Shown piece by piece: positions 32,901 through 63,657 of a DNA stretch of 64,000 nt. The stretch's first letter is position 1; the number at the start of each line of letters is the position of its first letter. A program made the translations under genes and the position numbers. The notes under the pieces are model-generated. The model searched no databases. It had not been told where the DNA came from and saw nothing but the letters and a program-made list of their open reading frames with translations. This DNA is from Watersipora subatra (Eukaryota; Bryozoa; Gymnolaemata; Cheilostomatida; Watersiporidae). The stretch is from assembly GCF_963576615.1 (NCBI RefSeq), contig NC_088714.1:186001-250000 (forward strand), written 5' to 3'.

Positions 32901-35900
32901 TTTGACCTGCGCGAAACATTTTTCTCATGATATGAAGTTTAAAAGTTGTTTGACAAAGTAAGTTTGAAAACCTTTACAGTTGTTTTAGGTAGAATGGCAA
33001 ATGTTGTTATATGCTAAATACAAATCAATTTTCTGTTCAGTTTTTTATTACCCGGGCAACGCTGGGTTGAACAGCTAGATGTATTAGCTTACACATTTTT
33101 CCTTTTAAACCTAACCAATTAAGTTTTCGTAATTAATTTCACATTTTACAACAAACATTTGTAAGATTACTGTAAGATTTATCGTGTAAGATTGCAAGTA
33201 TCAGTTTTTCTCCACTCTCTTATATTTACATACATTTACATACTTTGAGAAATATACATATATAGAAGACATATAATTTTAAATTCTCTTATTGCATTTA
33301 AAAACTTTTTATGACTTTTGAATTTATAATATAAGTTTTTTAAAGTTTGTTTCATCGTTGTTATTATTTCAACTTGCATTCTTTTAAACATAAATTGAGT
33401 ATCGTGTTTGAAGTTAAAACATTATTAATTTTCCTATCACGGTTATTATTACTTGATTAGTTTCCAATCTTTATTATTAATATTATTCTTTTATTCAGCC
33501 ATTTTTACCAGGCATTGTTCTAATAAAATTTCAACTACAAATACTATGATATTCTGTCATATTTTTTAATATCGTCGTATTCAAAGAATTGATGGATAAT
33601 TTCTGGTGGGACAGTAACCTTCTTATGCCCACACACTTCTACGCAAGAATTGTTATTATTGATTTAACATATTCACAAATTTTATTTTGTTTTCTCAGTT
33701 TGTATTAATTGTATCATTACCATAGCATCTTTTATTGTAATTGTTGCAAAGCCGACATAATTTAGCTATTACTTGCTAATTATTTGAAATTTACATCTAA
33801 TCCCTTTTACAATTGTTTGATTCTTTGTAATTTATTAGACTGGCAGAAAACCTTTTCCTCATGATATGAAGTTTGAAAGTTAGAGTTGTTTGACAAAGTT
33901 TGATAAACTTTACAGTTGTTTTTATTTTCTCTTAAATTATTTCAACCACACAAAACACTTTTCTCATGATAGGTTACCTATCATGTTTTCTCATGTTACC
34001 TATGTAGTTTGAATGTTAGAATGGCAAATGTTGTTATATATGTTAAATACAAATAGATTTTCTGTGCAAAGACTTTTTTATTACCCGGGTACAAGTACAG
34101 CTTATGGTGTAAAATGTAGAAAAAATACTTTACCGAAGTTGTTTTCGCGCCTTGAAGCAGATTAAAATTTACATTATTTTATTTTAATGGGAAAAATTGT
34201 TTCGGATCTCGAACTTCTGGAACTGATGATGTTTAAGAACTGAGGTTCCACTATACGTTATCAAAAGATATACAGTGGTGTGCATAAACTTGGAATCACC
34301 AGTTAAATCTTCAAATATGTATGTTTATATGCTGTTGTCTAAGAAATTCTTTGGAGTTAAGTGCCTCAACCCCCTCAATATATATATATCATTTGAAAGG
34401 GAAAATTCTGAAGAACAAGATGATGCCAAATATTCGAAAATATTCTCAGATTTTTATCGCTGGGGGTGGATCTACCGAAAGGCAGACTAATTGCAGGCTA
34501 TGAATGTTGTTAGTGAAAATTGATAAAACAGGATACAAACAAACTCTTTTATACAAATTGGTGGCCCTGAAAAGGGCCGTTGGGTTATTGTTGATCTTCA
34601 GAAGGACTGGTAAGGTGTCTTGAGCTGAGCACTAGTATTTTATTGGCCAGCCCTTGTTCTTGATCACCATCTGACACCGTCGAGGCATGCTGTTTACCAA
34701 CTTTCTGAGCTCTTCAGGAGTGATGATGTGATGCCAAGCATGAATAATCTTCTCTATGAGCTCCCGTTTTGTCTTTGGTTTATCTTTGCTGACTATCACA
34801 CCAATACGCTACCAAAGAGTTTCAATGGGATTCAGGTCAGGGCTTTGTGCTGGCCAGTCTATTACCCTCACATTACTTCTGGTCATCCACTCCTTGACTC
34901 TCTTGGCACAGTGGCAGGGTGCATTGTCATCCTGGTAGTACCAGGGTTGGTCGTTGCTGGTGAACAGGCTCCGAGCACTTGGAAGCATGACATCTTCCAT
35001 GGTCTTGATGTATTTGTCTCCATTCATCATGCTTTCACAAATGGAGAGTCTTCCCACACCAAAAGCTGTCATGCAACCCCATACCATGACTCCAGTATGG
35101 TGCTTGATGGTTGGTAGCGTACAAGCCGGGCTGTACTCCTCTCCAGGTCGTCTCCTCACATAACAATTTCCAGAGTGGTTTTGGATGGTAAATGTTGACT
35201 CATCACTGAACAAGACCCTTTGCCATTGGGCTGTTGTCCAGAACCGTTTATCTTTAGCCCACTCTAGACGACGCTTTCGCTGTTTCTCAGAAACTAAGGG
35301 CTTGCGCCTTGCCTTGCAGCCTTTTAAACCATTTGCAAGCAGTCTTCTTCGCACTGTACTGGGGTGAATCTCAATATCTCTGTTGTCCTTGATCTCCTTA
35401 CAAAGTTGAGTACTGTGCAGATGTCTGTCAGCGAGGGATCTTCGTACCAGGTACCGATCTTCGTGGATAGTCGTCTTCTTGGGTCGTCCAGCAGAGTAGG
35501 TGGGTTTAAGACTGCCATTGGAGGTCCAATTCTTGATTGCTGTGTAGACTGCCTTCTGAGAACGACCACATCTTCTGCTGATCAGATTGATATATATAAC
35601 ATCTGGCATGGCATCATAATTGGCAGGAAAATAGAAAGCAAATGGAAGATCCATTCGATATAGAGTGAACCAAACAATGTGATTCCAAGTTTATGCACAC
35701 CACTGTAGGTCGCTGAAAGTTATGAAGTTTTAAATTTACATTGGTTTGAAAATCTTTGCAGTTGTTTTATTTATTTTTAAATCAGTTGTCCTGCACAAAA
35801 CCTTTTCCTCATGATAAGAAGTTTGAAAGTTGTAGTTGTTTGAAAAAGTTTGAAAACCTTTACAGTTGTTTTATTTTCTCTCTTAATTTATTTCAACTAC

Positions 35901-38900
35901 ACAAAACACTTCTTTCATATGTAGTTTGAACGTTAGAATGGCAAATGTTGTAATATGTTAAATACAAATCAATTTTGTGTGCAAAGACTTTTTTTACTAC
36001 CCGGGCAACGCCGGGTAGCACAGCTAGGCTTGAAGCCGTGGCGTCACTCGGGGATGCGCGGGAGACCTTTTTCGTCCCGAGTACAGCGAGAGTCTCCAGC
36101 CGCTGCTTTCTAGATGAATGAGTTGGTGAGTGCGAGGCGGATTGATTGCAAAGCGATTGAGCGCTAGGCGATTGATTGCGAGTGCGAGGCAATTGGTTGC
36201 GAGACGATTGGTTGCGAGTGCAAGGTGATTGATTGCAAGGCGAGTGGGAGGTGATTGCAAGGCGAGTGCGAGGCGATTAATTGCGAGGAGAATGCAAGGC
36301 GATTGACTGAGGCGAGCAGGCCGATTGAGTGCGAGGCAGGTGCGGGCCGATTGATTGCAAGGCGATTGACTGCGAGTGCAAACCGATTGATTATGAGGCG
36401 ACTGCAAGAGCGCGATTGTCAACCGCTCGGCGGGTAAAGACTGGTCAGCCAAGGCGGGGGCTCAGCAGCAGAAGTGCGCGATCGTCAACTGCAAATATAG
36501 ACGAGGGTGAACGGATGCATGAATCTAGACACATGAGTCTAGAATATTTACTAGATTTTACACGCATCTAGCTGTAAGACACATTGCAGATTTTCATTTT
36601 TCTCCCCAACATTGACATGTATAAGTGCATACATACTCTGATCAAGACAACAACTTCAGTAGACTGCATATTTGGAGTTGTTTTTTCGTATGAAAGGCAA
36701 CTCTAAATAAACTTTATGCTGCCCGTGAATCTGCTCTTGTAGGCGGGTAATGCAGCTAGTGCGTTCATAAAGATCAACAAATGCAAGAGTGGCGCTCAAA
36801 TAGAGGTGGCGTTCAATTAAAGGATGGCGGCCTATTTTTCAACCCTTCTCTTAAAAGAAACACTCAAATAGAGGTGGGGTTCAAATAAAAGTTTCACAGG
36901 AACTATTTTAATCTAGCGGAAGTAAGAAAATCTCACTGGCGCGACAAGGGAGAAAATGGCGTGACAAGGGAAAACAATGGCGAGACAAGGGAGACAATGG
37001 CGAGACAAGGGAAAACAATGGCAAGACAGGAGAGACAATGATGAGACAGGAGAAACAATGGCGAAACAATGGCGAGGTAATGGAAACAATGGCGAGACAA
37101 GGGAGACAATGGCGAGACAAGGGAGACAATGGCGAAACAAGGGGGACAATGGCGAGACAATGGAAACAATGACGAGACAAGGGAGACAATGGAAACAACG
37201 GCGGGACGAGGGAGACAATGGCGAGACGAGGGAGACAATGGTGAGACGAGGGAGACAATGGCGAGACAAGAGAGACAAGCAATGAATGAGTGTAACATTA
37301 GCTCTAGGCACAGTTTTCTTGACGAGATGAAATCAGGGGCACGAAAAAAAAACACTTGAGAGCTAACCTTTTTAGCTTGTGTCCGAATTGTCGCCCGATT
37401 ACTCAATGATCGTTTTCTTTCCTGCAGAGCTTGGGTCAACTTGCGTGTGACAGGCCGTACGTCTCTCCTAAACTTCTGTTTGCTGTGGCCACTAACCTGT
37501 CTGTTAAAACAATAAAATTAGAGTCTGCCACCAAATATCCTCTGGGCTATATCATATGTAAAAGTAGTCTAATACTATATGATGGAATGTCAACATGATA
37601 TACAATTTGTCACAGGGTAGTACTGATATAGTTAACATGGTATACAATGTTGCACAGGGTAATACTGATATAGAATCAACATACTGATATAGAGTCAACA
37701 TGATATACAATGTGTCACAGGGTGGTACTGATAGAGAGTTACCATGATATACAATGTATCACAGGGTAGTACTGATATAGAGTTAACATGGTGTATAATG
37801 TATCAGAGGGTAGTACTGATATAGAGTTCACATGATATACAATGTGTCACAGGGTAGTACTGATATAGAGTTAGCATGGTATACAATGTTTCACAGAGTA
37901 GTACTGATATAGAGTTAACATGATATACAATGTGTCACAGGGTAGTACTGATATAGAGTTCACATGATATACAATGTGTCACAGGGTAGTACTGATATAG
38001 AGTTAGCATGGTATACAATGTTTCACAGGGTAGTACTGATATAGAGTTAACATGATATACAATGTTTCACAGGGTAGTACTGATATAAAGTTAACATGGT
38101 GTACAATGTATCACAGGGTAGTACTGATATAGAGTCAACATGGTGTACAAGCAACATGACATGATCTCCGAATCGATGGGTTGTTGATGAACATCACCAC
38201 AACGCCAACTTAAAAGGGGAAACAAGAAAAGCTAAGCAATGGTCATTACATGTCATCAGCTGAATGCGACTCACCTGGAGACAGCAGGTATTCTTGGATC
38301 AGCTTCAAGATTAGCAAAACATTTAAGCTTTTTATCTTTTCCATGAGTTTTACCTACTAAACACACATAGTAGAAAATGAAACATTAGAACTCATGCTAA
38401 GCGCTACAGAAGACAAATATGGCAGACTAGGAGAAGAATTTACATGAAGTATATTACCTGTGAGTGGCTCACTCGGCACGGGGAATGATTTAATATCAGT
38501 ATCGATGAAATACAACTGGTCATCGGTCTTCTCAGCCGCCAGACCTCTAAAATATTCCAGGTAGTGATGGCCATAAATTGGAACATGTCTAAATGCAAGT
38601 TTAGTTGAACATCCGTTAAAGGAATGAAGTAACAGGTTTAAAGGTGTGGTTGGCAGCAATTGAAACAAAGCCACAGACACCAGAATCTTCAGTTGCTGAA
38701 TAAGTAAAAAGTGATGCAAGCCTAAAATCTTTCAACCGAACATATTCTGGTACAATCTGGTCACACTTGGTGAAACAAGAGATCACATTTGATTGGACAA
38801 CTTATATTTAGCTAATACAATGTTCACTTCATTTCGTCACAAATTGTTGGTTCGATTGTCATTCAGAATGCAGCAAATAGATTAGGATAAGAAATAGTTG

Positions 38901-41900
38901 AAACCATATAAACTTTTTGTGTCCAATTCAGACTTGTTTGGTAGTCACTTACCAACTTAAGAACCAACTTAAGATGATGTGGTTGTGACAAGCCTACGTA
39001 GAAGACTTGGCCAGCACTTGAAAGATAACAAGTTACAGCAAACTACTAGAGTTATTGCTAATAGTATATCAGGCAGTAGTTCAATACGTACTGCCAGTTT
39101 TAGCTACTCTGATCTTACCATACATACAGGCATTTCACATGTATGTATATATATATATATATATCTATATATACATGTATATTTCTCAAAGTTTGTCCGT
39201 ATGTGTATTTGTAGGTTTGATTGTCCGGCTATAGCATAGTTCGAATAGTTGTAGTTGGACAACAATGCAGACACAAAGTCATGGCTCACCGCCATTAGAA
39301 GCCTAGCTTATTAAGCAGCTTACTAAAATTTTCCATTGGCAATGTGCCTGGCTAACAGCTTGAAAGTTACAGTTGTTTGACCAAGTTTTAAAACTTTTAC
39401 AGTTGTTTTTATTTCTCTCTTAATTTATTTCAACTACACAAAACACTTGTGTCATGATATGTAATTTGAAAGTTAGAATGGGAAATGTTGTTATATATTA
39501 AATACAATCAATTTTCTGTCCAAAAACTTCTTTATTACTCGGGCAACGCCGGGTAGCACAGCTAGTATATATATATTTAAATATGTACAGTAAACGCTCC
39601 TATAACGTAAATTCCAGATAACCTAAAAAATTTATGCAACGTTTTAGCTTCGCACTATGTAAAAATTTCCATATAACGTAAAGTGTCAAGTAATGACAGC
39701 TTCTCAAATTCGATTTGAATGGTAACATAATTATCTCGCCGCACTTGTGAAAAAAATACGTACGTATAGGGTATGTCTATTATACGGTATATACAACTTC
39801 TATGGCATTTAAGTTCATCGTAATAGATCGTCAGATGGGTCGACAAAACAGACAATAGGTAGCTGCGCAGTAAATAATGTATTAAAGGCGATCAATTTGT
39901 GCAGGCGTTACAGCGTCGGTCTACCAATCTAAATGTCACGAGTTAGGAGTATCGCCAAAAGTTATCTTTTATTCTAATCTTGACCCCTGGGTACAGATAG
40001 ACGATAAACAGGTAAACAACGCTTTTTATATAATAAAAACATATTTTTGTTTTGCTTTTTGTACACATATAAAGTACGTGTTATTAGTTTGACTTTGCAG
40101 AATAGACTTTGCTGTCTAAAAAAATAAACAAATCGTTGTAAATAGACGTCAAATATATGCGGTTCACATCAACTTGTAAAATTACCGCAATCGGAGTATA
40201 TTTGTATATTTGTATATTTGTATATTTGTGAAAATATTTCGACGAATAAGGTTGCATGAAAGTGTAAACAGAAACCATCCTGTAACAACTACGTCCCATT
40301 TGAGCCGTTTTGGAAAGCGAATCCAAACTACGGCGGTCTCGTGTGGCTGCGATTGACCGTTTGTTTTTTAGCTTTTAAGAGCTTGTAGTCACATTGCCAT
40401 ATATTTTGCACCTACAACACAACAGAGTAAGACATGGTGAATCTTATGATACCAAATAACTGTAATGTGAATTTTGTTGCAAGTCAACCTTTAAACCCTG
40501 TGGTCTAGTAGTAACAATTAAAATCTAGCACTAAAACAAACACAGGACATTGGAGCTGATCGTGGGAACTACAGATAGCAAACTAACCATTAAGCTACAC
40601 AGAATACAATGACTTCATTGGGCAAATAGCCATTACATTGGTTAAGATACTCAGGTTTAAAGTTAAAGAGTTTGCTTTAAGTCTCATTACTTCAGGTCTC
40701 TTTAAGGCTCATTACAACGTCGTTAATCGTATAAACAGCTCTAGTGCTTGCAGCTTTCTGGATGGTAAAGTTGCACAAAACTTTGGATATCATTCCATCT
40801 TGCACAGATTTCTTTCATATCCGCAGTTAAGGCATCATTCTTGATGTCATCCTCATCAGAAGACATCATTTTCAACGACCGTTTCTGTTCTACTTCTTCC
40901 TGAAGGTGCACGAGTTCTTCGGTGGTGAGCACATCACATTGTTCGTCGAGGAGCTCCTCGACATCGCCGCTGTCTATTTTTAAACCAAGATTTCGGCCTC
41001 TACTGACAATTTCATCAATCAGTTGAACGCCTTTTTGCAGTCCCTCACCGACGTCAGCAGCTGTGCTGGTACCAGCAACGCCGTCTGGCCCTTCCAACTC
41101 TGGTCCAGCCACACACTTGGGCCACAATTTTTTCCATGCCGAGTTCATAGTCTTGTATGACACTTGGTTCCACATTTTGTCAATGAAGGAGATGCAGTGG
41201 TAAACATTGAAATGATTTTTCCAAAAATTTCAAAGGGTTAGGTTTGTGTCACTAGTCACATCGAAGCATCGTTGAAACAAGAATTTAGTGTACAACTTCT
41301 CAAAATTTGCGATAATTTGCTGGTCCATAGGTTGAATCAGAGGTGTAGTAGTTGCAGGGAGAAACTTTATCTTGATGAAATCCAATTTTTCTGTCAAATC
41401 TTTTTGGAAACATGGAGGGTGGGCAGAAGCATTATCCATAAGAAGACAGCAGCGTAGTGGCAATTACTTTTCCACCAAATATTTTTTTACGGCTGAACCA
41501 AACACCTCATGCACACACTCAGTACTAATTTGCCTGGTCAGCTAAGCCTCTGTATTCGACCTCCACATAACAGGCAACCTCCCTTTACTAACATTGTTAG
41601 CTTTGAAAGCCCTTGGATTCTCGGGATGGTAAATGAGAAGAGGCTTTACTTTGAAGTCACTGCTAGCGTTTCCACACAACAAGAGAGTTAGTCTATCCTT
41701 CATTGGTTTGTGGCCTGGCATCGACATATCCTCACAAATTATGTACGTTCATGGCACTTTTTTTCTTCAAAAAAGTCCAGTTTTATCCATATTGAACGCT
41801 TGTTGAGGACATATATGTTGGCATCGACATATTGCTTGAATTCCTTTTTCAAGTCATCAGCAACTGTTTTGTCCGAAATTTCTGCCTCCCCATGACGAAC

Positions 41901-44900
41901 AACAGAGTGTATCCCACTTCTTTTCTTAAACTTTTCAAACCACCCTCTGCCAGCTTTAAAATCAAACCCTTCAAGAATGATGGTAGGATTCATACAAAAG
42001 TTTTGCTTTTGTACAAATCGTATCTTCACTCAGAGTGTCCCTTGTTTTTCATTTATGAAAATAAGCAGGTTTTTCCACTGCTTCCAATACCTGCGGCTTT
42101 TGTTTGCTAAAAATACTAGATCATTAAATGACATCACCTGCTTTAAGCTGATCTTTGTTTTTTACGGTGGTACTTATGGTCGATTTCGCCATGCCAAACT
42201 CCTTAGCCAACACAGATAAAGGCACACCAGATTCATATTTAGCTATCAATTCCTTTTTTAATTCAATATTTTTTCCGAATTATCTTTTTTTCCCTCGGTG
42301 TCCTTTCTTTGTTTTTGGAGCCATAGTAATGAATCAGGGTTGGGAAAAACATCGATATGTTTAAAAATACCATATCACTGATATATATCATGATATTTAT
42401 TGATATTTTTGATATTTATGATATTTATTGATATGATATCTTTGAAACAAATGACATTTCTGAAAAAAAATGACGCTAGGTTGAACTTGTATGGTGTTTA
42501 AATTGTGATTGATGTATTTTATAGGTTGTATGGAACCAGTCAGCACTGTTTAATACTAAAAACTTGATTTATTGTAAGCCTAGTATAATAATAATATTTA
42601 TAAATATGAGCATGTTCGTCAAACATTGGATTAGAAATCATGACATGAATGCAAAGTGCAAACAAAATAGTGCATATAGTAAATACACACTATGATAGTC
42701 CAAGCATGTTCTCATGTCCTACTCTTGTCTAGTTTAGGTATTTGTAAACAAACACCAGCTTGCCAACCTTCACACCGAGATGATTTCTCAACTTGCTGTA
42801 AACCAGTCCACATGATGAAAACACACAGTCAACACTAGCAGTCAGAGTTATATCATCATATTTATAGATTTTATACTGAGCCAGAATCCTTTAAAGCTAT
42901 TCATTGAAAGAATTTTACAAAAAAAAACGATGAGTTGAGTTACTCTGTCATCTCAGTGAGTCAGTGTAATATGCTTACACTTCTGTTTCTGATGGAGTAT
43001 GAAGTTCAAAGGGTTTTCAGCAGGCTGGTCTTCCAATAAGGCAATAAAATATAACAGTTCAATATGACATGAGATAATCAGGTTAAGGAATAGTACTGGG
43101 ATGAAGGAATACAATTTAGATCTGAAAAACTCTTCACAACTCAAACACTAATTAATTGGTCTAGCCAACGTTACCTCCTTGGTCTGCCTGTCTTTTTTTG
43201 TCTGTTGGGTAAGCCTAATAGGCCTCTATGCAAGTACCTGATGACTTTAGGTGTGATATATATCAAGCGATATATATCAGACCAACCCTGTAATGAATGT
43301 TTCGATGCAGTTTCCGGAGTTGTTCCGAACGTTTAATTCCAAAGCTCAAGCTCCGGTTTAGTCGAGAACCGAATTAATTTTACATTCGAGATCCGAGACG
43401 AACAAATCTCAAAATTTTTAGTCGAAAGCCGAGTTGGTCGAGAACCGAGGTTTCACTGTATATAAATCTCAAAGTCTGTCGTATTTTGGTCTGCCTTGCG
43501 ATAGCTATTAACATCTAGGAATAAAAGACCTGTTTCGAGCTGGATTTGATCTCAGAACCTCCCGCTCACCAAACAATAACCTAACCAATTAGGCTACGTG
43601 AGATGCAATGGATTCATTAAGCGATATGAGTTGTTATTTCGATTAAAATATGCATAGCACTCCGCGTTGAGATGACACATGAGATAACATGCGATACAAC
43701 TTTAAGTACTCTTTGAGTTGCTCACGACTCAAGTCACTAATATTTTAGTTTTTTAATGCAATTTTTCATAACTAGATCACCTATCTATTGTATGCTTACA
43801 GCAATTTACTTAATCTACAATACTAGCAAATAGTCAAGTCTTAACAACAAAAACATCTGAGTTCAAAATGGATTCCCTGTACAGCTGGTTGTACCATTCC
43901 TACAAAAAAGAAGTGAGATTTTCATTTTTTCCTTAGTTTTCAGACTTTATTACTGCAAATACGGAATTTCAGTTTAATTTTCATACCTGATGCAAGAGTA
44001 AATGCCAATGAAGAGATAGATGTCACTGAAATACTTTTAAAAATGCCAAATTGCCTACACATACAATTGTGCTACTGCAACTGACACAAACATTTTTCAA
44101 GAACTCGGATGACTTTCGATAATGCGAGAGAGTTTGAGCTATTTGCAATAGCTCTACATTTCAGAGCTTATAGTATAGTAACTGTTGTTATTTTAGTGTT
44201 ATAATAACTCAGGTCAGTGACCTTTCTACATTGATGCTCGACGATTTCTACTAAACATGAACACAATGAATGAATCTCAAGAATGAGCTCGGTGCATAAG
44301 CTGATACGATTATAGGTTAGTGTTGATTAAAGTAAAGTAGAATAGACATGACACATTGTTTGCCCTTCTTCTAGTAATAGTTGTTATGAAAAAGAAGACA
44401 ATCCTTAACTTAATACTTGATAACCAGTAATGTAAAGCCATTTCAGTGAAAATTTCACTGAAATTTTAAAATTATAATGAAGTGTTGGTTGAGCATTCAG
44501 CAATCAGGTTAAGAATTTTCTTTCCATCTTTGAATACAGACTAAACCTAAATTGAAGACTTCAGCAACAAAGGTATAACGAATTAAAATAGGATATTCGG
44601 TTATCGCTCCAGAAGAGGAAAACTATTAAGGTCTTGGAATAAACTAAAAACTTCTCAATAGTTGATAGCAGCTACAGTTGATACAGATATCAACCAAAAA
44701 TAGAACAGTGTAAAACTGCGAGGTTTTACTTTATCCTTTCTCTTTACTATTCTTCTCTTTTTGTAACCTGCAGCCTCCAAACATTTGTAATTTTTTGTGA
44801 AAATGCATATAATATTCCTTTAAGAGTTTGTATATCAAACAATGCAGACTTAGACAGCTTCTCAGTACACTTTTCTATATTTAAGACTTTATAATGCCAG

Positions 44901-51412: not shown

Positions 51413-54400
51413 ATGTCTGAGATGGATTATGAGCCTGGTAGCTTATCAGAACTGATTGCTGCAAAATCCCGCAGCAAAAAAGGAAAAGTGAAAAAGGCAG
51501 TTAGTCGATCGAATGAAGAAAACCTTCAGCGAATATTTGAAGATTCTTCTTCAGGAGATTATGTCACCAAACCTCTCTCTACAGTAAGTCCCTATCAACC
51601 CTTTTACCTCATCTTCTTTGTGCTATGTTATCAAACCTCTCTCTACCGTGAGTCCCCTATCGACCTTTTTACATCATCTTCTTTATGCTATGTTATCAAA
51701 CCTCTCTCTACAGTGAGTTCTCTATCAACCCTTTTACATCATCTTCTTTATGCTATGTTATCAAACCTCTCTACCGTGAGTCCCCTATCAACCCTTTTAC
51801 ATCATCTTCTTTATGCTATGTTATCAAACCTCTCTCTACAGTGAGTCCCCTATCAACCTTTTTACATCATCTTCTTTATGTTATGTTATCAAACCTCTCT
51901 CTACAGTGAGTCCTCTATCAACCCTTTTACATCATCTTCTTTATGCTATGATATCAAACCTCTCTTTACAGTGAGTCCCCTATCAACCCTTTTACATCAT
52001 CTTTTTTATGCTATGTTATCAAACCTCTCTCTACAGTGAGTCCTCTATCAACCCTTTTACATCATCTTCTTTATGCTATGTTATCAAACCTCTCTTTACA
52101 GTGAGTCTCCTATCAACCTTTTTACATTATCTTTTTTATGCTATGTTATCAAACCTCTCTCTAAAGTGAGTCCCCTATCAACCTTTTTACATCATCTTCT
52201 TTATGCTATGTTATCAAACCTCTCTCTACCGTGAGTCCCTATCAACCTTTTTACATCATCTTCTTTATGCTATGTTATCAAACCTCTCTCTACAGTGAGT
52301 CCTCTATCAACCCTTTTACATCATCTTCTTTATGTTATGTTATCAAACCTTTCTCTACAGTGAGTCCCCTATCAACCTTTTACATCATCTTCTTTATGCT
52401 ATGTTATCCAATCTCTCTTTACAGTGAGTCCTCTATCAACCCTTTTACATCATCTTTTTTATGCTATGTTATCAAACCTCTCTCTACAGTGAGTCCCCTA
52501 TCAACCTTTTTACATCATCTTCTTTATGCTATGTTATCAAACCTCACTCTACAGTGATTCCCCTATCAACCTTTCTACATCATCTTCTTTATGCTATGTT
52601 ATCAAACCTCTCTCTGCAGTGAGTCCCTTATCAACCTTTTTACATCATCTTCTTTATGCTATGTTATCAAACCTCTCTTTACTACAGTGAATCCCCTATC
52701 AACTCTTTTAAAACATTTTCTTTATTTGGTGTTGCCAAACTCTCTGTACAGCAACTCTCTCACCCAAGCGACTGCCATAACTACAATGCTGTTGTTAACT
52801 TAGCTTATAGTCACACTTGCTATATCGGTTAAGTTAATGAAAAACCAGTAGCTATAGGCTGTATTTTCCATTAGCATTGATCACTGATATCGAAGTTGCT
52901 TAAATACTTTTAGGAAATTGAGGACACAACTCGTCCAACGTCGTCAGATAAGCTCACGAAAATCCAGGAAGAAGCTGATGACGCAATTCAGCCAAACACG
53001 ACAGTTGAGAGACGGAAGGAGGTTCGGGAAAAAAGTAAACTTGTTAAGTTACGACAACGAGAAAAGCTAGCAACTGGAAGTCACACAGTGTTTGTAGGGA
53101 ATGTCCCAGTTGAAGCAGAAAAAAAGGTGGGCATACTTTGAGATAGATACTTACCATAGACTTAGTTTCTGTAAGGATAGGATGGCGAGGCTTGGATCCC
53201 CGTCTTTCCATTTCCATCTTTCCTGTAAACATTTGTAGTCGGAGCCTCTGTCCTTTGCCGACTCCTCTGTCCTCTGTGCCTCTGCCAGAGTCGCAGTCGC
53301 ATCTCTTTATTTTATTACTTTACTCCACGAAGAGCTCACACCATGTTCCACTGCCTAAATGTCTGTATTTACTGATTTTTTATCTGCCAATCTTTGATTA
53401 GGAAAGTTTTTCTCAGAAAAGGTTGTATAATTGGTGGCTTTCATTTAATATAAGCAATATTTTCTCATCTCACTCTGGTTGCTCACTCTGAAAGAATACA
53501 CAGTATACGCTCTTATAACGTATACCTTCTATAACGTAAATTCCTCATGGCGTAAATAATTTATGTAAAGTTTTTGCATTGTACAACATAAAGAATTCCA
53601 TATAACAAAGTGTCAAGGAGCCGGTGCAAATTCTCAAATTTGGTTTGCATAAGGGAATCTTGTAGTTTGCTCTAAAATATTGATACCTTGTGCCACACTT
53701 GAGAGAGAAAATGACATAATTATTTTTATGGCTCTCTCTATTACATGTATATATAATACTAGTACCCCGGCAATTTAGTTCGCTGTTAGAGATCGTCAGG
53801 TGTGTCGACAAAGCGCAAATTATATGTAACTGCACAATGATTCTGAAATACTTCAATACGGTCTATTGGTGCTGGCGTTAGAGTGTTGATATACCAAACT
53901 GAATGTTGCTAGTTTCATTACTGTATTACTTGTTGGTAAGTCGAGTGCTTTGTTACGACCAGCTAATTGCAAAAAATTAGAGTACAGTCGAACCCCAACA
54001 TAGGAAGTTATTCTGTTCCAGTATTTGCTTCTCATGTCGAAATCATGGTATGTTGAAGCACATATTTTCATGAGGATTGTAAGTTGAATGTTGACTGTAC
54101 AAGATGTCAACATATCATAAGCTTTAGTTGACAACACTTTTCTACTTTTGGAGAATCATAATGTAACACCCTCTTGATGCTTAATAATGTCACAAATTAA
54201 TGCGGTAAATGCTTATTTTTCTCTTGTGATGAAAATATGGTTCCTGTACATTCAAGTTTGAAATCAGCCCAAAGAGCCTAACAGATACAAAAGGCTATGA
54301 ATTGCTACAAAAACACTTAGTGTATGTTTTTTATTAGCTGTTGACTTGTGGTAATAAACTATTAGCTGTTGACTTGTGGTAATAAACTATTAGCTGTTGA

Positions 54401-57400
54401 CTTGTGGTAATAAACTATTTCGTTTTATACAGGATATCCGTAAATTCTTTAAAAAATATGGGACTATAAAATCTATTCGATTCCGAAGCCTGGTAAGTTT
54501 TATCACTATACCTGTCTGTACGTGTCTTCTACCTGTAACTTTTATTATACCTGTTTATATTTGTTGTCTACTTATCACTTCCATTATACCTGTCTATGCA
54601 ATGTGTGTTCATCCTTATCACATCTACTTAGCACATTCATTATACTCACTTCGACTACTTCCACCTGTTACTTTTATATTCTCTGTTTGTACTGTGAGTA
54701 TTTACTCTACTCACTTCCACCTGTTACTTTTATAGTCTCTGTTTGTACTGTGTGTATTTTTTCTACTCACTTCTACCTGTTACTTTTATATTCTCTGTTT
54801 GTATTGTGTGTATTTACTCTACTCACTTCCACCTGTTACTTTTATATTCTCTGTTTGTTTTGTGTGTATTTACTCTACTCACTTTCAACTGTTACTTTTC
54901 TATTCTCTGTTTGTACTCTGCGTATTTAATCTACTCATTTTACCTGTTGGTTTCATTATCTATTTTTAGTATTATGTTCACCAGTCGGCATCAGAATCAG
55001 ATTACTTCACTTTATCTTAAGATCTCATTTATTGTAATCTATTTATAATGCAAGGCTTGATTTTGTGGACATATGCTGTTAGTCAAGGTTCATAACATTT
55101 CACCATCCATTATTGTTTTAGTCTTTCCTTATCTATGTTTCTCTGTCTATTTCATCCTTGTTCACATCTGTTTCTGTCTCTTATATCCTCATCCATATCT
55201 CGTTCATCCTAATTCAATCATGTTTTATATCTCATTTCATCTCTTTTCTATCCGTATTTAAATATATTTTCATTGTGTCTGATCTATCTTTGTCTATACA
55301 TTATGCCGGCTCTATCTTACCCTTGTCTGTATCTTTCCATTTCTACTCCACTTTTATTAACATCGGTCTTGTTTTTCTGTTCGTTCTTACTTTTGACGAT
55401 TTATCTCTGTAACCAGACGTTTAGAGCTGCATTTATGATCTAATGTTGGTATCAATGATTTAATGTTGGTATCAATGATCTAATGTCGGTATCAATGATC
55501 TAATGTCGGTATCAATGATCTAATGTCGGTATCAATGATTTAATGTCGGTATCAATGATCTAATGTCGGTATCAATGATCTAATGTCGGTATCAATGATC
55601 TAATGTCGGTATCAATGATTTAATGTCGGTATCAATGATCTAATGTCGGTATCAATGATTTAATGTCGGTATCAATGATCTAATGTCGGTATCAATGATT
55701 TAATGTCGGTATCAATGATCTAATGTCGGTATCAATGATCTAATGTCGGTATCAATGATCTAATGTCGGTATCAATGATCTAATGTCGGTATCAATGATC
55801 TAATGTCGGTATCAATGATCTAATGTCGGTATCAATGATCTAATGTCGGTATCAATGATCTAATGTCGGTATCAATGATCTAATGTCGGTATCAATGATC
55901 TAATGTCGGTATCAATGATCTAATGTCGGTATCAATGATCTAATGTCGGTATCAATGATCTAATGTCGGTATCAATGATCTAATGTCGGTATCAATGATC
56001 TAATGTCGGTATCAGTGATCTAATGTCGGTATCAATGATCTAATGTCGGTATCAATGATTTCAAGTCATTCTACCATTCTAGATGCGGAAGGACATTACG
56101 AAGCCACTAAAAGCAAGTGCTATAAAGTAAGTTGGAGCTATCGCTTCTTTCCATGACATTCTTGACCCTTTGTTTTGACAAGTTGCCGTTTATTTTTCTC
56201 TAAATGTAACCTGTTAACATAAGGTAGGCTTATTGACACTTTATCTGTCATGGCTGGTACGCTTCACCCTAGTCTTGTATCGTAGAAGGGATCTACATCC
56301 TCTTTGCAAGGCTCTGAATGTTTACATCGTGTTTGAGGAGGAGCGTAGCGCTAGTCGAGCACTCAAAAGGTATGTGTAGTAACTTTCCTTTTACATTATA
56401 CATGTTGGCTCATTTTTGTTCATGTCATATTATTTCTCTGTTTTAATAATTGAATGGAAGTGAGTAATACTTGCTATCTAGGGAACAACTGTATGCTTTC
56501 CGCTTTAATTCCTCTATTTCTTTGGTTACTTGTATGGCAGCCATCATTTCTTTTCATTGAATATTGTTTCAAATCTGTTGAGTACAACGTCGTGAGACAA
56601 CCCGGATACATACGATGGAATATAAATAATTATTCAAATATTCGTAATGGTTGTTAGTCAGAAAAACAAAGAAAGATGGTGGTTGTTTACATTTGTTTTT
56701 TTTTAATATCTGAACAAAGGAGAAGGAGTAGCTAAATAGACACGAGATTTTCACAGATGTTTCATCAAGGCTGCATTTATTTAGATTTATATAACCTCGC
56801 TACTTGAAGTTAGATTTATATAACCTCGCTACTTGAAGTTAGATTTATATAACCTCGCTACTTGAAGTTAGATTTATATAACCTCACTACTTGAAGTTAG
56901 ATTTATATAACCTCACTACTTGAAGTTAGATTTATATAACCTCGCTACTTGAAGTTAAATTTATATAACCTCGCTACTTGAAGTTAGATTTATATAACCT
57001 CGCTACTTGAAGTTAGATTTATATAACCTCACTACTTGAAGTTAGATTTATATAACCTCGCTACTTGAAGTTAGATTTATATAACCTCGCTACTTGAAGT
57101 TAGATTTATATAACCTCACTACTTGAAGGTAGATTTATATAACCTCACTACTTGAAGTTAGATTTATATAACCTCGCTACTTGAAGTTTATTATCGTCCT
57201 TTTTGCTTCTTCAACTCTTTCTGCGAGTCATTTAACATGAAGTAAGAAGGAAACAAAGGATTCCAAGCTGAATACTATATTGATACCGCCACAAGCGAAA
57301 CTCAGCTAAAATCGGTCGCAATCAAATCAACGCAGAACTCTGTGTATGACACAACGTCATAGTACATTGTCACGCAAAATGGCTTATTAAACACAGGCAC

Positions 57401-60400
57401 ATATCAATAATAAAATTGTATAATAGTGAAATGCCTTTCTATTACATGCGCAGTTCCCAAATCATGTTTGCATATTCCTATATTCAGCATGAATTGTTAG
57501 TTACTACTGACAGAGACTGTCATGTTGAAATAGGGTCTTGAGTAAGCAAAGCAGCCTGAAATAAGTGGTCAATGTGAGATAAATATTAATGCGTAGGTAT
57601 TGTATTGGTATAGTTTCTCTGAAAAATGGTATTTCGCCTTCAGAACAAAGCTGTGACGATTATGGGTTATTAGCTAAGGTTTCTTTAGCGTGTACATTGT
57701 AACAAACACTAGCAATGTGAAGGGTTTAAGAACACTTCATAGATTATAGTTTGGCCATCTCAACTTAATCTTGTTTTTGTCTTTTGGTAGAAAAAACTGT
57801 TTTTAAATAGTTTCACTAGAGTGGTGATATTGCTTAGATGGCATTAGTATCCAATATATCTGATAGTATCCAACTGTCATGCACACCAACTCAGCCATTT
57901 TATCTACAACCAAATAATTTACAAGTATAGTCATACCTCGACGGATGAGCTTAATTCGTTCTGGGACTGAGCTTGCGTGTCAATTTTCTCATATCTCACA
58001 GCAATATTTTCTATATAAAATAACTAAATAGTAATTACAAAAACACATAAAAATAGTATATGTGTTACAATGGAAAACATGTTCTTAATTGTTGTAATTA
58101 AGAATCTACCTATGCTCTAGAAGAGCATCTACCTATGCTCACAAAGTAACAAATACCTATTTAGTGGTTATGATCTGCATTAAAATGTAAAATTATTATG
58201 TACAGTACTGTATTGATTTATTACCTTTGAATCAAATGTACTGGCTAACGACAGTGTGAGAGACTTGACAGCAATACGATTGGTACACCAGACTTTTGTG
58301 ACGCTACGTAGTAACATAAACTTTAAATTTAATATGAATGAATTGAGCATGCTAAACACACACTTGAAGAAAAGTTTTAATTTTTTACTAAACTTAATTC
58401 TAATTTTGTCTTCGTTTTCATGCTCTTATTATCTTCTTTCGGCCAGGCACTTTTTTTCTCGCTTTCACCATCACCTTTATCCAGCCTTTCCAATACTTTT
58501 CAAACTGATCCGACGAGGAAGACCAAGCGATGCTGTTCTTGTAAGCTGCCTCTCACATACTTAGTCACTTAGCGACGGCATCAACATCGCATCGGCTCGT
58601 TCTCAAATCTCTCATATGTTGGGGCACTCGTATGTCAAAATATGACTGTATTTATACTGTATTTTTTTGCGTTTTCTGAAAATGTATCAATGAAGAGCTT
58701 GTGTAGATACCGTAAAATCTCTAATTGAATGCCATTGTGCTTTATTTTTCAATCCTTCCTTTATAGTGGAAGTCAATTAGAGGTGGGGTTCATATAGAGG
58801 CTGGCGTTGTATTTTTCAAATGACTCGTCAGAATTTTGGGAAAATAAATTTAGCCCTTTTGCAGGCGAATCGAATGTCGTCTATATTCTGCCCTCTTCAT
58901 CCGTTAAAGCAATATTAAACCTTTTGGATGCAATAAATTTGCTAACTTAACTCCAACCTGTCAAAGATCTCTAAAGATAAATAAGCATTAAGAAACCGAG
59001 AAATATCGCTACCAGTTGATATCTATTGCATACAATTAACCTGTGATGATATTATAGCCTGTGTCCTGCTTCGCAAATTATTGGGGCTTTCAATTTTTAT
59101 ATCAAATGCTACAAGTATATATATATATATTCATAAACAAGTTACATAAACAAACCATACTTATATTACATGCAGAAACAAAAATTTACGTTTTAAAACA
59201 AAAATATTTGCATTTGCTCGGATAGCTACGTTCTGATTGTTGCTTTCAATGGAACGAACATCTTCTGGTTGTCCAACCTTTTCCTCAATGTCTTCTGACC
59301 TCAACTCTTATTGTGCATTGCTGAACTAATCAATATTACCATCCAAGCAATTTTTGGCAGAGCAAAACTTTTACGCGTTGCATTTGTGCTAAATGCAACA
59401 CGTAAAAGTTTTGCCTGCTAAATGTAATCTTTCCAAAACTAGTCGACTAGTTTACATCTATTAGTTGTAGATGGAAACTAGTTGTTGACATCTTCCATCG
59501 TAAATGTAAACCAGTTTTCATATACTTTGAAGTAACAAGACCATGTTAAACAAGGAACTACTATCAGCCTGAATCTGATGCAGTTACTAATTATTTTTAT
59601 AGTGTTGCTTTCAAAGTTTTAACAAAAAAACCAAAAGCCTTGGAGTTGAACAATGAGAGAGTTAATTCCTTTGATGTAACCGAGTCATTATTCGTACGAT
59701 TTTGTGGACACTTTTCTACTGGTCATTTGCTATTATGGGTTCGTAACAGTCAATGTCAAAGCGGTGAACAAATGAAGGTGACGTTCAAATAGAGGTGGCG
59801 TTCAATTAGAGGTTTTACGATAGTTCACATTTTTGAGAAGGGCCCTTATTGTCTTTACTATGAATGTTGTTCAAATACAGGTAGTAAATCAGTCATTGAC
59901 TCTGAAACACAGTTTCAGCCACACAATGATATGAGTTGAATATGTGTTAGAATCTAGAGTTTGTATCATTTGTAGGGTCTAGCACAGAATGTTCAAGTAT
60001 GTAGAGCATTCACAGTCATAGAATTTGCTGTTCACGAATTTGTCTGGTATCACCATATTTTAACACTCAACATCATTGTCTTTGTCAAACTCGGTATGAA
60101 ACGTTTGACATCATGTTTAATGTTAACGCTGAGTCTGGCATTTTCAATCTTAATTTAACCCAAAGTAGGTCTGAAAACTAATAAAAAATTGTCTTGCCAT
60201 AAATAAATTGTAGCCAAGAGCTATATATGTAGATATATATGAGAGTTAAAGACATGGGGCGGTTCCATAAAACTATAAAGGATTAATACTTCAGAAAATA
60301 CAACAAAAAGCCTAAATTTATTCAACCAATTCGATACATTGAATTCTTGTAGAAATGGAAAGGAGTTCTTAGGCAGCCATCTGAGAGTGGATTTAGCCTC

Positions 60401-61171
60401 ATCCTCCGTGGACAAAGAGGTAAGAAAAACTTGAGTCACTGAGTTAATTTTATTCTTACTGGAATTATCTATAACACAGGTTTGATGTGATCTACTCTGT
60501 ATCTCTTTTTTAGATCTCATGCCTCTCTATTTTTTTTTCAGCCCAACAGAAAGTGCAGTGTCTTTGTTGGCAATGTTCCCTTTGGTGAGTTCCTCTTTGG
60601 TTATAGTTTTACCTGTGATCCTGTTAGTTATGACGGTATTCTTGCTCGCGAATCAGTAGATACCGTTGTGACTCCTTGCTTAGCGTTTGAGTCTTTGCTT
60701 AGCCTGTGAGTCCCTGCTTAGCCTGTGAGTCCATGTTTAGCCTATGAGTCCTTGCTTAGCCTTTGAGTCCCTGCTTAGCCTCTTCATATTCTCATTATCT
60801 TGTTTATTAGAACTGCATTTGTTGTGCGCCTCTGCTTCAGTATAACACCTTGTTTCTACTGATTAAAGCGCTTGCACAACATTGTCACATGACATGCCAT
60901 CACACCTTGTATGACAAGCTGTCACACCTCATATGATATGCTGTCACATCTCATATAATATGCTGTCACACCTTGCATGACAAGCTGTCAAACCTCATAT
61001 GACATGCTGTCAAACCTCATATGAAAAGCTGTCATATCTTTTTATATACCAGATGCACACGAAGAAGCACTTAGGAAGCATTTCAGTGGCTGTGGAGACA
61101 TTGTTAATGTTCGTCTCATCAGAGACAAGGAGACAAGACTCGGCAAAGGCTTTGGTTATGTTGAATTCAAG
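51413..61171 (+). CDS. RBM34: RBM34 (Nop12-like) two-RRM nucleolar RNA-binding protein, 3' end outside window
   Basis: RBM34 is the animal relative of yeast Nop12, a pre-60S factor. Exons: 51413-51583, 52914-53126, 54433-54492, 56083-56126, 56286-56369, 60353-60419, 60542-60584, 61053-61171; 801 nt, 267 residues, all phases compatible. The first 100 or so residues are charged linker ([28 protein letters not shown]-like basic region). RRM1 begins at [15 protein letters not shown] (RNP2), continues with [16 protein letters not shown] and ends with NVYIVFEEE (RNP1-like) and ALKRNGKEF...LRVDLAS. RRM2 opens with [10 protein letters not shown] (RNP2) and has [20 protein letters not shown] and KGFGYVEFK (RNP1). 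The rest of RRM2 and the basic tail are missing; no matching exon was seen in 61172-64000, so the gene runs off the window. Introns 1, 3, 5 and 8 hold minisatellites. An upstream 5' UTR exon is possible (CTACAG just before the ATG). Confidence 0.95.
51567..52700. repeat. 64-bp minisatellite that duplicates the RBM34 exon 1 donor
   Basis: About 18 units of 63-66 bp. The first unit starts inside exon 1 (ACCAAACCTCTCTCTACA) and contains the true donor ACA|GTAAGT at 51584; the following units carry ACA|GTGAGT, nearly all intact, plus CTATCAACCCTTTTACATCA and CTATGTTATC. Each unit therefore also has a pyrimidine-rich tract ending in CAG. The ORFs that run over the array are by-products. Confidence 0.94.
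53504..53930. mobile_element. MITE-like repeat in RBM34 intron 2
   Basis: Second copy of the family at 39589: TATACGCTCTTATAACGTAT, TCTATAACGTAAATTCC, then ordered shared blocks. The right end is undefined. Confidence 0.55.
54334..54418. repeat. 28-bp tandem repeat, 3 copies, before RBM34 exon 3
   Basis: Three copies of TATTAGCTGTTGACTTGTGG-TAATAAAC end about 14 nt before the acceptor of exon 3, so the array occupies the branch-point region. Confidence 0.92.
54517..54950. repeat. About 61-bp tandem repeat after RBM34 exon 3 donor
   Basis: Six or seven units with CACTTCCACCTGTTACTTTT and ATTCTCTGTTTGTACTGTGT. The array starts about 25 nt beyond the donor CTG|GTAAGT. Confidence 0.88.
55431..56060. 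repeat. 20-bp minisatellite before RBM34 exon 4
   Basis: About 31 near-identical units of TAATGTCGGTATCAATGATC; a C/T change at the last base recurs in several. Units are head to tail with no spacers. It ends 22 nt before the acceptor of the 44-nt exon 4. Confidence 0.96.
56783..57190. repeat. 29-bp minisatellite in RBM34 intron 5
   Basis: About 14 units of ATATAACCTCGCTACTTGAA-GTTAGATTT with rare substitutions. Confidence 0.95.
57929..58648. mobile_element. Tigger-family MITE
   Basis: Left end TAGTCATACCTCGACGGATG, right end CGTATGTCAAAATATGACTG then TA. Shares TTAATTCGTTCTGGGACTGA and TTTTCTCATATCTCA with 23018-24153. No transposase. Confidence 0.75.
58710..59823. mobile_element. TIR element, uninterrupted copy
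   Basis: Left end TACCGTAAAATCTCTAATTG, right end the reverse complement of TCGTAAAACCTCTAATTGAA. It corresponds block by block to the copy split at 32081/36760. Around 59375-59410 it has a palindrome (GCAACACGTAAAAGTTTTGC and its upstream mirror). No transposase recognised. Confidence 0.75.
60680..60780. repeat. 19-bp tandem repeat in RBM34 intron 7
   Basis: Five units of TGAGTCCCTGCTTAGCCTG type, about 100 bp after exon 7. Confidence 0.88.
60890..61030. repeat. About 24-bp tandem repeat before RBM34 exon 8
   Basis: Six units of CTCATATGACATGCTGTCAC type ending about 20 nt before the acceptor of exon 8. Confidence 0.87.
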
Positions 61172-61454: not shown

Positions 61455-62020
61455 GAGTGCCAGAGTAGTGTAAGTGATATATTAATATACCAGAGTAGTG
61501 TAAGTGGTATATTAATATACCAGAGTAGTGTAAGTGGTATATTAATATACCAGAGTGGTGTAAGTGTTGTATTAATGTACCAGAGTAGTTAGTGTAAGTG
61601 TTGTATTAATATACCAGAGTAGTGTAAGTGTTGGATTAATATACCAGAGTAGTTAGTGTAAGTGTTGTATTAATATACCAGAGTAGTGTAAGTGTTGTAT
61701 TAATATACCAGAGTAGTGTAAGTGGTATATTAATATACCAGAGTGGTGTAAGTGTTGTATTAATGTACCAGAGTAGTTAGTGTAAGTGTTGTATTAATAT
61801 ACCAGAGTAGTGTAAGTGGTATATTAATATACCAGAGTAGTGTAAGTGGTATATTAATATACCAGAGTGGTGTAAGTGTTGTATTAATGTACCAGAGTAG
61901 TTAGTGTAAGTGTTGTATTAATATAACAGAGTAGTGTAAGTATTGTATTAATATACCAGAGTAGTTAGTGTAAGTGTTGTATTAATATACCAGAGTAGTG
62001 TAAGTGTTGGATTAATGTAC
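61455..62020. repeat. Minisatellite, unit 30-34 bp
   Basis: About 18 units of TACCAGAGTAGTGTAAGTGT plus TGTATTAATA; some have an inserted TTAG. Blocks of units repeat in the same order, pointing to higher-order duplication. GTGTAAGTG in each unit resembles a donor. Confidence 0.92.
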
Positions 62021-62199: not shown

Positions 62200-62520
62200 A
62201 CATAGTCTAGACCGATGTGCCCGCGGGCCGTGAGTTTGACACGCCTGGTCTAGATCGATGTACCCGCGTGGCCCGCGGACCGTGAGTTTGACACCCCTGG
62301 TCTAGACCGATGTACCCATGTGGCCCGCGGACCGTGAGTTTGACACCCCTGGTCTAGATCGATGTACCCGCGTGGCCCGCGGACCGTGAGTTTGACACCC
62401 CTGGTCTAGACCGATGTGCCCGCGGGCCGTGAGTTGATACCCTTGGTCTAGACTGATGTACCTGCGTGGCCAATGGGCCGTGAGTTTGACACCCCTAGTC
62501 TAGACCGATGTACCCAGGTA
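62200..62520. repeat. Tandem repeat built from a hAT-like terminus
   Basis: Six units of about 50-60 bp with TCTAGACCGATGTACCCGCG, GGCCCGCGGACCGTGAG and TTTGACACCCCTGG. The reverse complement CCAGGGGTGTCAAACTCACG matches the end sequence typical of animal hAT elements. Confidence 0.85.
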
Positions 62521-62860: not shown

Positions 62861-63415
62861 CAGTCATACCACGACATATGAGACTCCCAACAGGAAAATT
62901 TTGAAATACGAAGCAAATTTCGAGCAAATCTTTGCCTTGGTATGCGAAAAAAAACTTGAGATATGAGACGGTTCTCGATGCGGCTACTAGGTGGCATCCT
63001 ACTAGGTGGCATCCTACTAGGTGGCATCCTACTAGGTGGCATCCTACTAGGTGGCATCCTACTAGGTGGCATCCTACTAGGTGGCATCCTACTAGGTGGC
63101 ATCCTACAAGGTGGCATCCTACTAGGTGGCATCCTACTAGGTGGCATCCTACTAGGTGGCATCCTACTAGGTGGCATCCTACTAGGTGGCATCCTGCTAG
63201 GTGGCATCCTGCTAGGTGGCATCCTGCTAGGTGGCATCCTGCTAGGTGGTATCCTGCTAGGTGGCATCCTGCTAGGTGGCATCCTGCTAGGTGGCATCCT
63301 GCTAGGTGGCATCCTGCTAGGTGGCATCCTGCTAGGTGGCATCCTGCTAGGTGGCATCCTGCTAGGTGGCATCCTACTAGGTGGCATCCTACTAGGTGGC
63401 ATCCTTCTAGGTGGC
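62861..63415. mobile_element. Tigger-family end with an expanded 15-bp minisatellite
   Basis: TA-CAGTCATACCACGACATATG at 62861 opens a Tigger-type end. At 62985-63415 the unit CTAGGTGGCATCCTA (15 bp; central copies have CTG for CTA) occurs about 29 times. Flanks GATGCGGCTACTAGGTGGC and GGTGGCCAGG match a single unexpanded unit in the MITE at 23018-24153 (reverse strand, about 24070). The long repetitive ORFs on both strands are not genes. Confidence 0.88.
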
Positions 63416-63657
63416 CAGGTATGATAGAGGCTGCTTATGAGAATAGCATTGCTCTGTTTTTTTCATCGAATCAACAAGATTTTAGGTCAAGTGCAGGTGA
63501 AAGTGACTTTAATTGCGAGATAAAAAAGGACAAGTCAGAAAATGAAAATCAAAAATGAACATGAAAACTAGAATTAGAATGAAATAAAACAAAATTGGAA
63601 TTAAGTTTAGTGAAAGATTTAAACTGATTTTTAGCATATTAAACTAAATTCATCTTA

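Follow-up and report, generated by a model that had tools for sequence, protein, structure and literature searches.

The window, by which we mean the whole 64,000-nucleotide stretch of Watersipora subatra DNA analyzed here, has a G+C content of 36.6% and belongs to a genome of 784 Mb in 239 contigs. On its plus strand lies a gene whose eight predicted exons join into a protein of 267 amino acids, the best PDB match of which is Nucleolar protein 12 (yeast Nop12; E 2.4e-23, residues 125-267), which we take to be the yeast counterpart of RBM34. On the strength of this alignment the gene is RBM34/Nop12-like, with exon 1 itself outside the significant part of the match. NOP53 occupies the minus strand, where Pfam Nop53 matches fall at 28819-28917 and 22769-22948 and a weak one at 24711-25082 (E 0.0046, below the cut-off). 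Elsewhere the window carries a Tc1/mariner-type transposase open frame at 34812-35690 (minus strand; Pfam HTH_Tnp_Tc3_2 and DDE_3) and pieces of a Tc5/pogo-type transposase at 41233-42029 (minus strand; Pfam DDE_1 and HTH_Tnp_Tc5, the latter barely above the cut-off). Two further tandem arrays are found on the plus strand. The first, of 52-bp units at 62219-62515, contains GTGAGTTTGACACCCCTGG, a sequence more reminiscent of the ends of hAT-type transposons than of splice sites. The second, at 62984-63415, has 28.8 copies of a 15-bp unit, a length that is a multiple of three, and is open in two plus-strand frames (ORFs 62905-63555 and 62960-63421). The exon 1/intron 1 junction of RBM34, on which the following account turns, was placed from open reading frames and GT/AG signals. 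The features of the gene and of the arrays considered here are as follows.

51413-51583 (+), coding part of RBM34 exon 1, ending YVTKPLST in phase 0 (open frame, splice to exon 2)
51560-52725 (+), 65-bp minisatellite array of 18 units (Tandem Repeats Finder, TRF: 18.0 copies, 91% matches, score 1934; unit alignment)
51560-51623 (+), unit 1 of the array, 64 nt, with the authentic exon-intron boundary and the donor ACA|GTAAGT at 51584
51624-52725 (+), units 2-18, copies within the intron (unit alignment)
52914-53126 (+), RBM34 exon 2, acceptor ACTTTTAG|GAAATT
54433-54492 (+), RBM34 exon 3 (open frames and GT/AG; edges corrected by eye)
54493-54948 (+), 5' part of RBM34 intron 3, with a 39-bp array (2.3 copies) and then a 56-bp array (TRF)
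56083-56126 (+), RBM34 exon 4 (open frames and GT/AG)
about 56286-56369 (+), RBM34 exon 5 (open frames and GT/AG; edges corrected by eye, also using the human sequence)
59776-59813, small array of 2.2 copies in RBM34 intron 5 (TRF)
60353-60419 (+), RBM34 exon 6 (open frames and GT/AG)
60542-60584 (+), RBM34 exon 7 (open frames and GT/AG)
about 61053-61171 (+), RBM34 exon 8 (open frames and GT/AG; edges corrected by eye)
25344-25693 (-), 19-bp array in a NOP53 intron (TRF)

The minisatellite of RBM34 intron 1 lies across the exon-intron boundary, with the authentic junction as one of its edge units. Its consensus unit consists of 24 nt of exon end, the donor hexamer and 35 nt of intron, and unit 1, TATGTCACCAAACCTCTCTCTACA|GTAAGT..., joins the final 24 coding nucleotides of exon 1 to the donor. 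Units 2-18 add 17 copied donor positions, all inside intron 1 (51584-52913), and the array ends near 52725. The original prediction, that the exon 1 donor is duplicated about 17 times in the following intron, agrees with this count of one authentic and 17 copied positions. It was also right that the repeat unit starts in the coding end of exon 1 and includes the donor, although the start lies at 51560 and not at 51567. Pairwise comparison of the units points to the way in which the array has evolved. Inner units differ on average at 4.4 of 68 columns, against 8.9 for the first unit and 12.6 for the last, the latter figure including a 3-nt insertion. Such divergence at the edges around inner units that have stayed alike is, judging from the alignment, the usual turnover of a minisatellite, and the suggestion of a recent tandem expansion made in the original prediction is upheld by it. 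TRF also offers a second fit with a period of 453 bp (seven units). The mean difference between units is 3.89 at lag 7 and lies between 4.0 and 4.9 for all other lags up to 11, and since there is no sharp minimum a duplication in blocks is not established.

We read this array as a splice boundary that has been duplicated and multiplied. A tandem duplication at the junction would have begun in the last part of exon 1 and reached, through the donor, ~35 nt into intron 1, and unequal exchange or slippage would have expanded the duplicated boundary to 18 units. The mRNA would remain unchanged provided that the spliceosome picks the first, exon-attached donor at 51584, and the extra copies would then be tolerated because they are removed with the intron. 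The copied donors would be passengers, preserved by the low divergence and the homogenization of the array rather than by selection. We have good confidence that a boundary duplication expanded to 18 units and left copied donors that are tolerated rather than selected; the array itself is genuine and boundary-spanning, and it is most likely neutral. The use of the first donor, the neutrality of the copies and the direction of growth are inferred. The reverse order of events, in which the exon 1 donor moved into the first unit of an older minisatellite and the final eight codons of the exon are captured repeat, seems unlikely to us. In favor of it, the protein end YVTKPLST falls outside the stretches aligned to Nop12, so that there is no sign here of the end of exon 1 being old, and unit 1 is the most diverged after the last unit, which fits either order. 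The exon 3 donor argues the other way, as it follows the Nop12-aligned residues IRFRS and the 39-bp array adjoining it resembles that donor; together these point, if only suggestively, to growth from the junction.

Whether the copied donors have been held in place can be judged from the 17 copies themselves. All 17 have GT, 15 have GTGAGT and 10 have the exact ACA|GTGAGT, a motif that had been described as kept almost without exception; the departures are three ACC, one AAA, one GCA, one GTGATT and one GTGAAT. With the three insertion columns unique to the last unit excluded, 2 of the 102 cells of the donor hexamer deviate (2.0%) vs. 49 of 1105 in the whole unit (4.4%), the exon side contributing 15/408 and the intron side beyond the donor 32/595. 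The hexamer is numerically quieter, yet 18 of the 65 hexamer windows along the unit are equally quiet, the donor itself counted, so the picture of a donor held while other positions vary is not sustained. For the 9-mer from -3 to +6, 7 of 153 cells deviate and 36 of the 65 9-mer windows are as quiet. At the array-wide rate, binomial expectation for 17 copies gives 12.95 intact hexamers where 15 are observed (P=0.19) and 11.3 intact 9-mers where 10 are observed (P=0.82), and by these measures and per-column variation there is no significant excess in favor of a donor evolving more slowly than the spacer, at low power. Equal divergence of donor and spacer had been named beforehand, together with splicing only at 51584, as the outcome that would speak against selection; by sequence no difference between the two could be distinguished, in a test that is weak given 49 deviating cells in all and related copies whose cells are not independent. 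With so few changes among related copies, weak constraint could be missed.

It had been suggested that the donors are specially retained as decoys. Under such a reading selection would preserve the copies for a role in slowing or regulating the splicing of intron 1, be it as U1 sinks or decoy 5' splice sites, and the intact GT of all copies, the GTGAGT of 15 and the two deviating cells of the hexamer are what would be expected to speak for it. We nevertheless regard selection for decoys as very improbable, since the 15 and 10 intact motifs lie near their expected numbers, conservation does not significantly exceed that of the remaining unit, three of the 17 copies have a changed position -1, and the 9-mer does not stand out as quiet. 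U1 duplex energy, a crude measure of donor strength, weighs in the same direction. The authentic donor scores -5.6, 15 of the 17 copies -5.7 or -5.8, and the remaining two -1.7 and -1.9. Of seven further positions scored as RBM34 donors, five range from -8.8 to -9.6 and two score -5.6, one of these (61171) having been placed one base off its GT and so not being a fair value. The GTGAGT copies, once thought stronger than many real donors, pair less well with U1 than five of those seven. As the authentic donor and 15 of the 17 copies pair about equally, the sequence is silent on why the first donor would win. The only copied donors that are both in frame and open are those at 51713 and 51776, so use of most of the others would break the protein.

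The units carry a second, acceptor-like signal. In 13 of the 17 copies the sequence also reads CAG|TGA behind a pyrimidine run, one G being common to acceptor and donor, and the units could be imagined as pseudo-exons with an acceptor at CTCTCTACAG|TGA as well as a donor. With exon 1 ending in phase 0, the TGA would stand in frame right behind it, so inclusion of such a poison exon would switch the message off. The frequency of the motif and the phase of exon 1 accord with this; however, the same G would have to serve as acceptor and donor, the stretch is not quiet, and the three ACC copies and the AAA copy lose the CAG, which makes a poison exon highly improbable. That the unit is a dispersed satellite inserted into RBM34 intron 1 is most improbable as far as the 64-kb window shows, where a 26-nt unit probe allowing up to three mismatches finds 16 matches (0 expected by chance in 100 shuffles), every one of them within this array; unit 1, moreover, consists in part of RBM34 coding sequence.

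A duplicated and expanded boundary with passenger donors has close counterparts in amphioxus, where intron-exon boundaries have been duplicated into minisatellite-like arrays of unstable length, named "mirages" (PMC3087553; PMC3902484). In the portions of these papers available to us, regular splicing is reportedly undisturbed by mirages (PMC3087553; PMC3902484), inner units of a mirage cluster are alike and its edges, outside homogenization, diverged (PMC3087553), and new introns are suggested to arise from mirages (PMC3087553). The genes named there are Adh3, the globins BflGb6 and BflGb9, and PGBD5, and unit lengths are 10-72 bp in Adh3, 60 and 108 bp in PGBD5, and 150-160 bp in BflGb6 (PMC3087553; PMC3902484). 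As far as those portions go, the RBM34 array and the amphioxus mirages alike span a boundary, retain a splice signal in many but not all units, and have edges left unhomogenized around homogenized inner units. The 65-bp unit of RBM34 falls inside the mirage range, and its 18 units exceed the 3 and 6 of BflGb6 (two haplotypes) and the up to 7 of PGBD5 in the same excerpts. The cases called mirages there come from cephalochordates, and splicing and length variation are known for them, whereas the RBM34 array is known here from the sequence of one assembly alone. By its anatomy, and as the excerpts portray mirages, the RBM34 intron 1 array is of the known mirage kind. A 1995 report by Turri et al. 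is said, by its title, to concern a minisatellite that provides multiple splice donor sites in one transcript, reportedly the human interferon-induced 6-16 (IFI6/G1P3) with a unit of 12 bp, compared with 65 bp in RBM34. Going by that title, the 6-16 donor sites are provided in a transcript, whereas the copied RBM34 donors have been read from DNA only. Ordinary intronic minisatellites are the same kind of tandem repeat, and the window holds many others; of the 14 arrays in introns that could be assigned, that of RBM34 intron 1 is the one shown to cross an exon end. Intronic minisatellites have been reported in earthworm metallothionein genes (PMC12783039) and in an abalone kinase gene (PMC6905558), with duplicated splice sites not described in the available parts of either report.

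Other arrays in the two genes also lie close to exon ends. Among the 14 RBM34 and NOP53 introns with both ends assigned, TRF places 14 arrays in 8 introns, the small intron 5 array included; the ~8-kb NOP53 stretch between 37368 and 29179, which has several arrays and whose next exons are unplaced, and RBM34 intron 8 (array 61460-62020) stand outside this count. With a cut-off of 25 nt that was chosen post hoc, after looking, 6 of the 14 arrays end within reach of a junction vs. 1.50 expected under random placement (p 0.0008), and 5 of 13 vs. 1.21 when the intron 1 array is removed (p 0.002). Arrays of at least 2.5 copies give 5/12 (p 0.003), or 4/11 vs. 1.1 expected without the intron 1 array (p 0.01). 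The result depends on the cut-off. For all arrays, 15 nt gives 4/14 (p 0.008), while there is no signal of junction anchoring for the 14 arrays in these 14 introns at 10 nt (1/14, p 0.49) or 75 nt (6/14, p 0.14). Arrays of at least 2.5 copies without that of intron 1 give 2/11 at 15 nt (p 0.14) and 4/11 at 50 nt (p 0.10). Among the 14, the array of RBM34 intron 1 alone could be shown to contain its junction. Arrays at 54332-54419, 55435-56059 and 60885-61034 (plus strand) end ~13-23 nt ahead of the acceptors of RBM34 exons 3, 4 and 8, and alignment found no significant sequence shared between them and those acceptors.

In eight alignments of junctions to arrays, none of 1000 shuffles scored as high as the intron 1 donor. 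The match of the intron 3 donor to the 39-bp array was equaled by 1 of 1000 shuffles and by 10 of 1000 window pieces. For the six remaining alignments the number of such shuffles lay between 168 and 887 of 1000. The 39-bp array starts 14 nt past the intron 3 donor CCTG|GTAAGT and its unit resembles the donor stretch, a likeness that we consider suggestive. The 56-bp array gave no significant match to the same donor (418/1000 shuffles, 469/1000 window pieces). The 39- and 56-bp repeats make up most of the first ~450 nt of intron 3, and several start with CCTG as the exon end does. The RBM34 intron 7 donor, one of the six, scored 47/1000 in the window-piece control. A scan for self-similarity at the donors and acceptors of seven RBM34 introns, rough because the exon ends entered were mostly misplaced, by 1 to about 23 bases, put 3 of 14 scores above all 100 shuffles: the intron 1 donor (76 vs. 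29), which is clear, and the intron 2 and intron 7 acceptors, with short matches to adjoining arrays.

A parallel array on the acceptor side of NOP53 had also been proposed. None sharing junction sequence was found among the NOP53 introns examined, and the array at 37592-38150 stops ~90 nt short of the acceptor at 37502 with no resemblance evident by eye; what NOP53 has instead is an array on the donor side (25344-25681, minus strand). Its donor CAG|GTAAGA is followed directly by 18 units of the 19-bp repeat, 9 beginning GTAAGG and 6 GTATGG, in register, although alignment of the donor stretch with this array is not significant alone (360/1000 shuffles, 278/1000 window pieces). Across 30 arrays of the window, where the numbers are too small to be decisive, the donor motif GTRAGT occurs in the units of 4, the shuffle means being 0.84 (mononucleotide) and 1.47 (dinucleotide) and the maximum 4 in both; GGTAAG occurs in 1 of 30 (0.38 and 0.36) and GTAAG in 2 (1.91 and 2.18). 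Tentatively, splice junctions may be birthplaces of minisatellites in this genome, where arrays would start at an exon end or next to it and spread inwards, the introns lengthening as their own ends are copied, an idea that we find possible rather than likely.

Boundary-spanning arrays such as that of RBM34 show how much duplicated splice signal one gene can bear. In the model set out in the accessible part of the amphioxus work, they are the proposed raw material for new introns (PMC3087553). If the anchoring of arrays at junctions were general in this genome, it would provide a testable route of intron growth and would raise the question of why exon ends breed tandem repeats.
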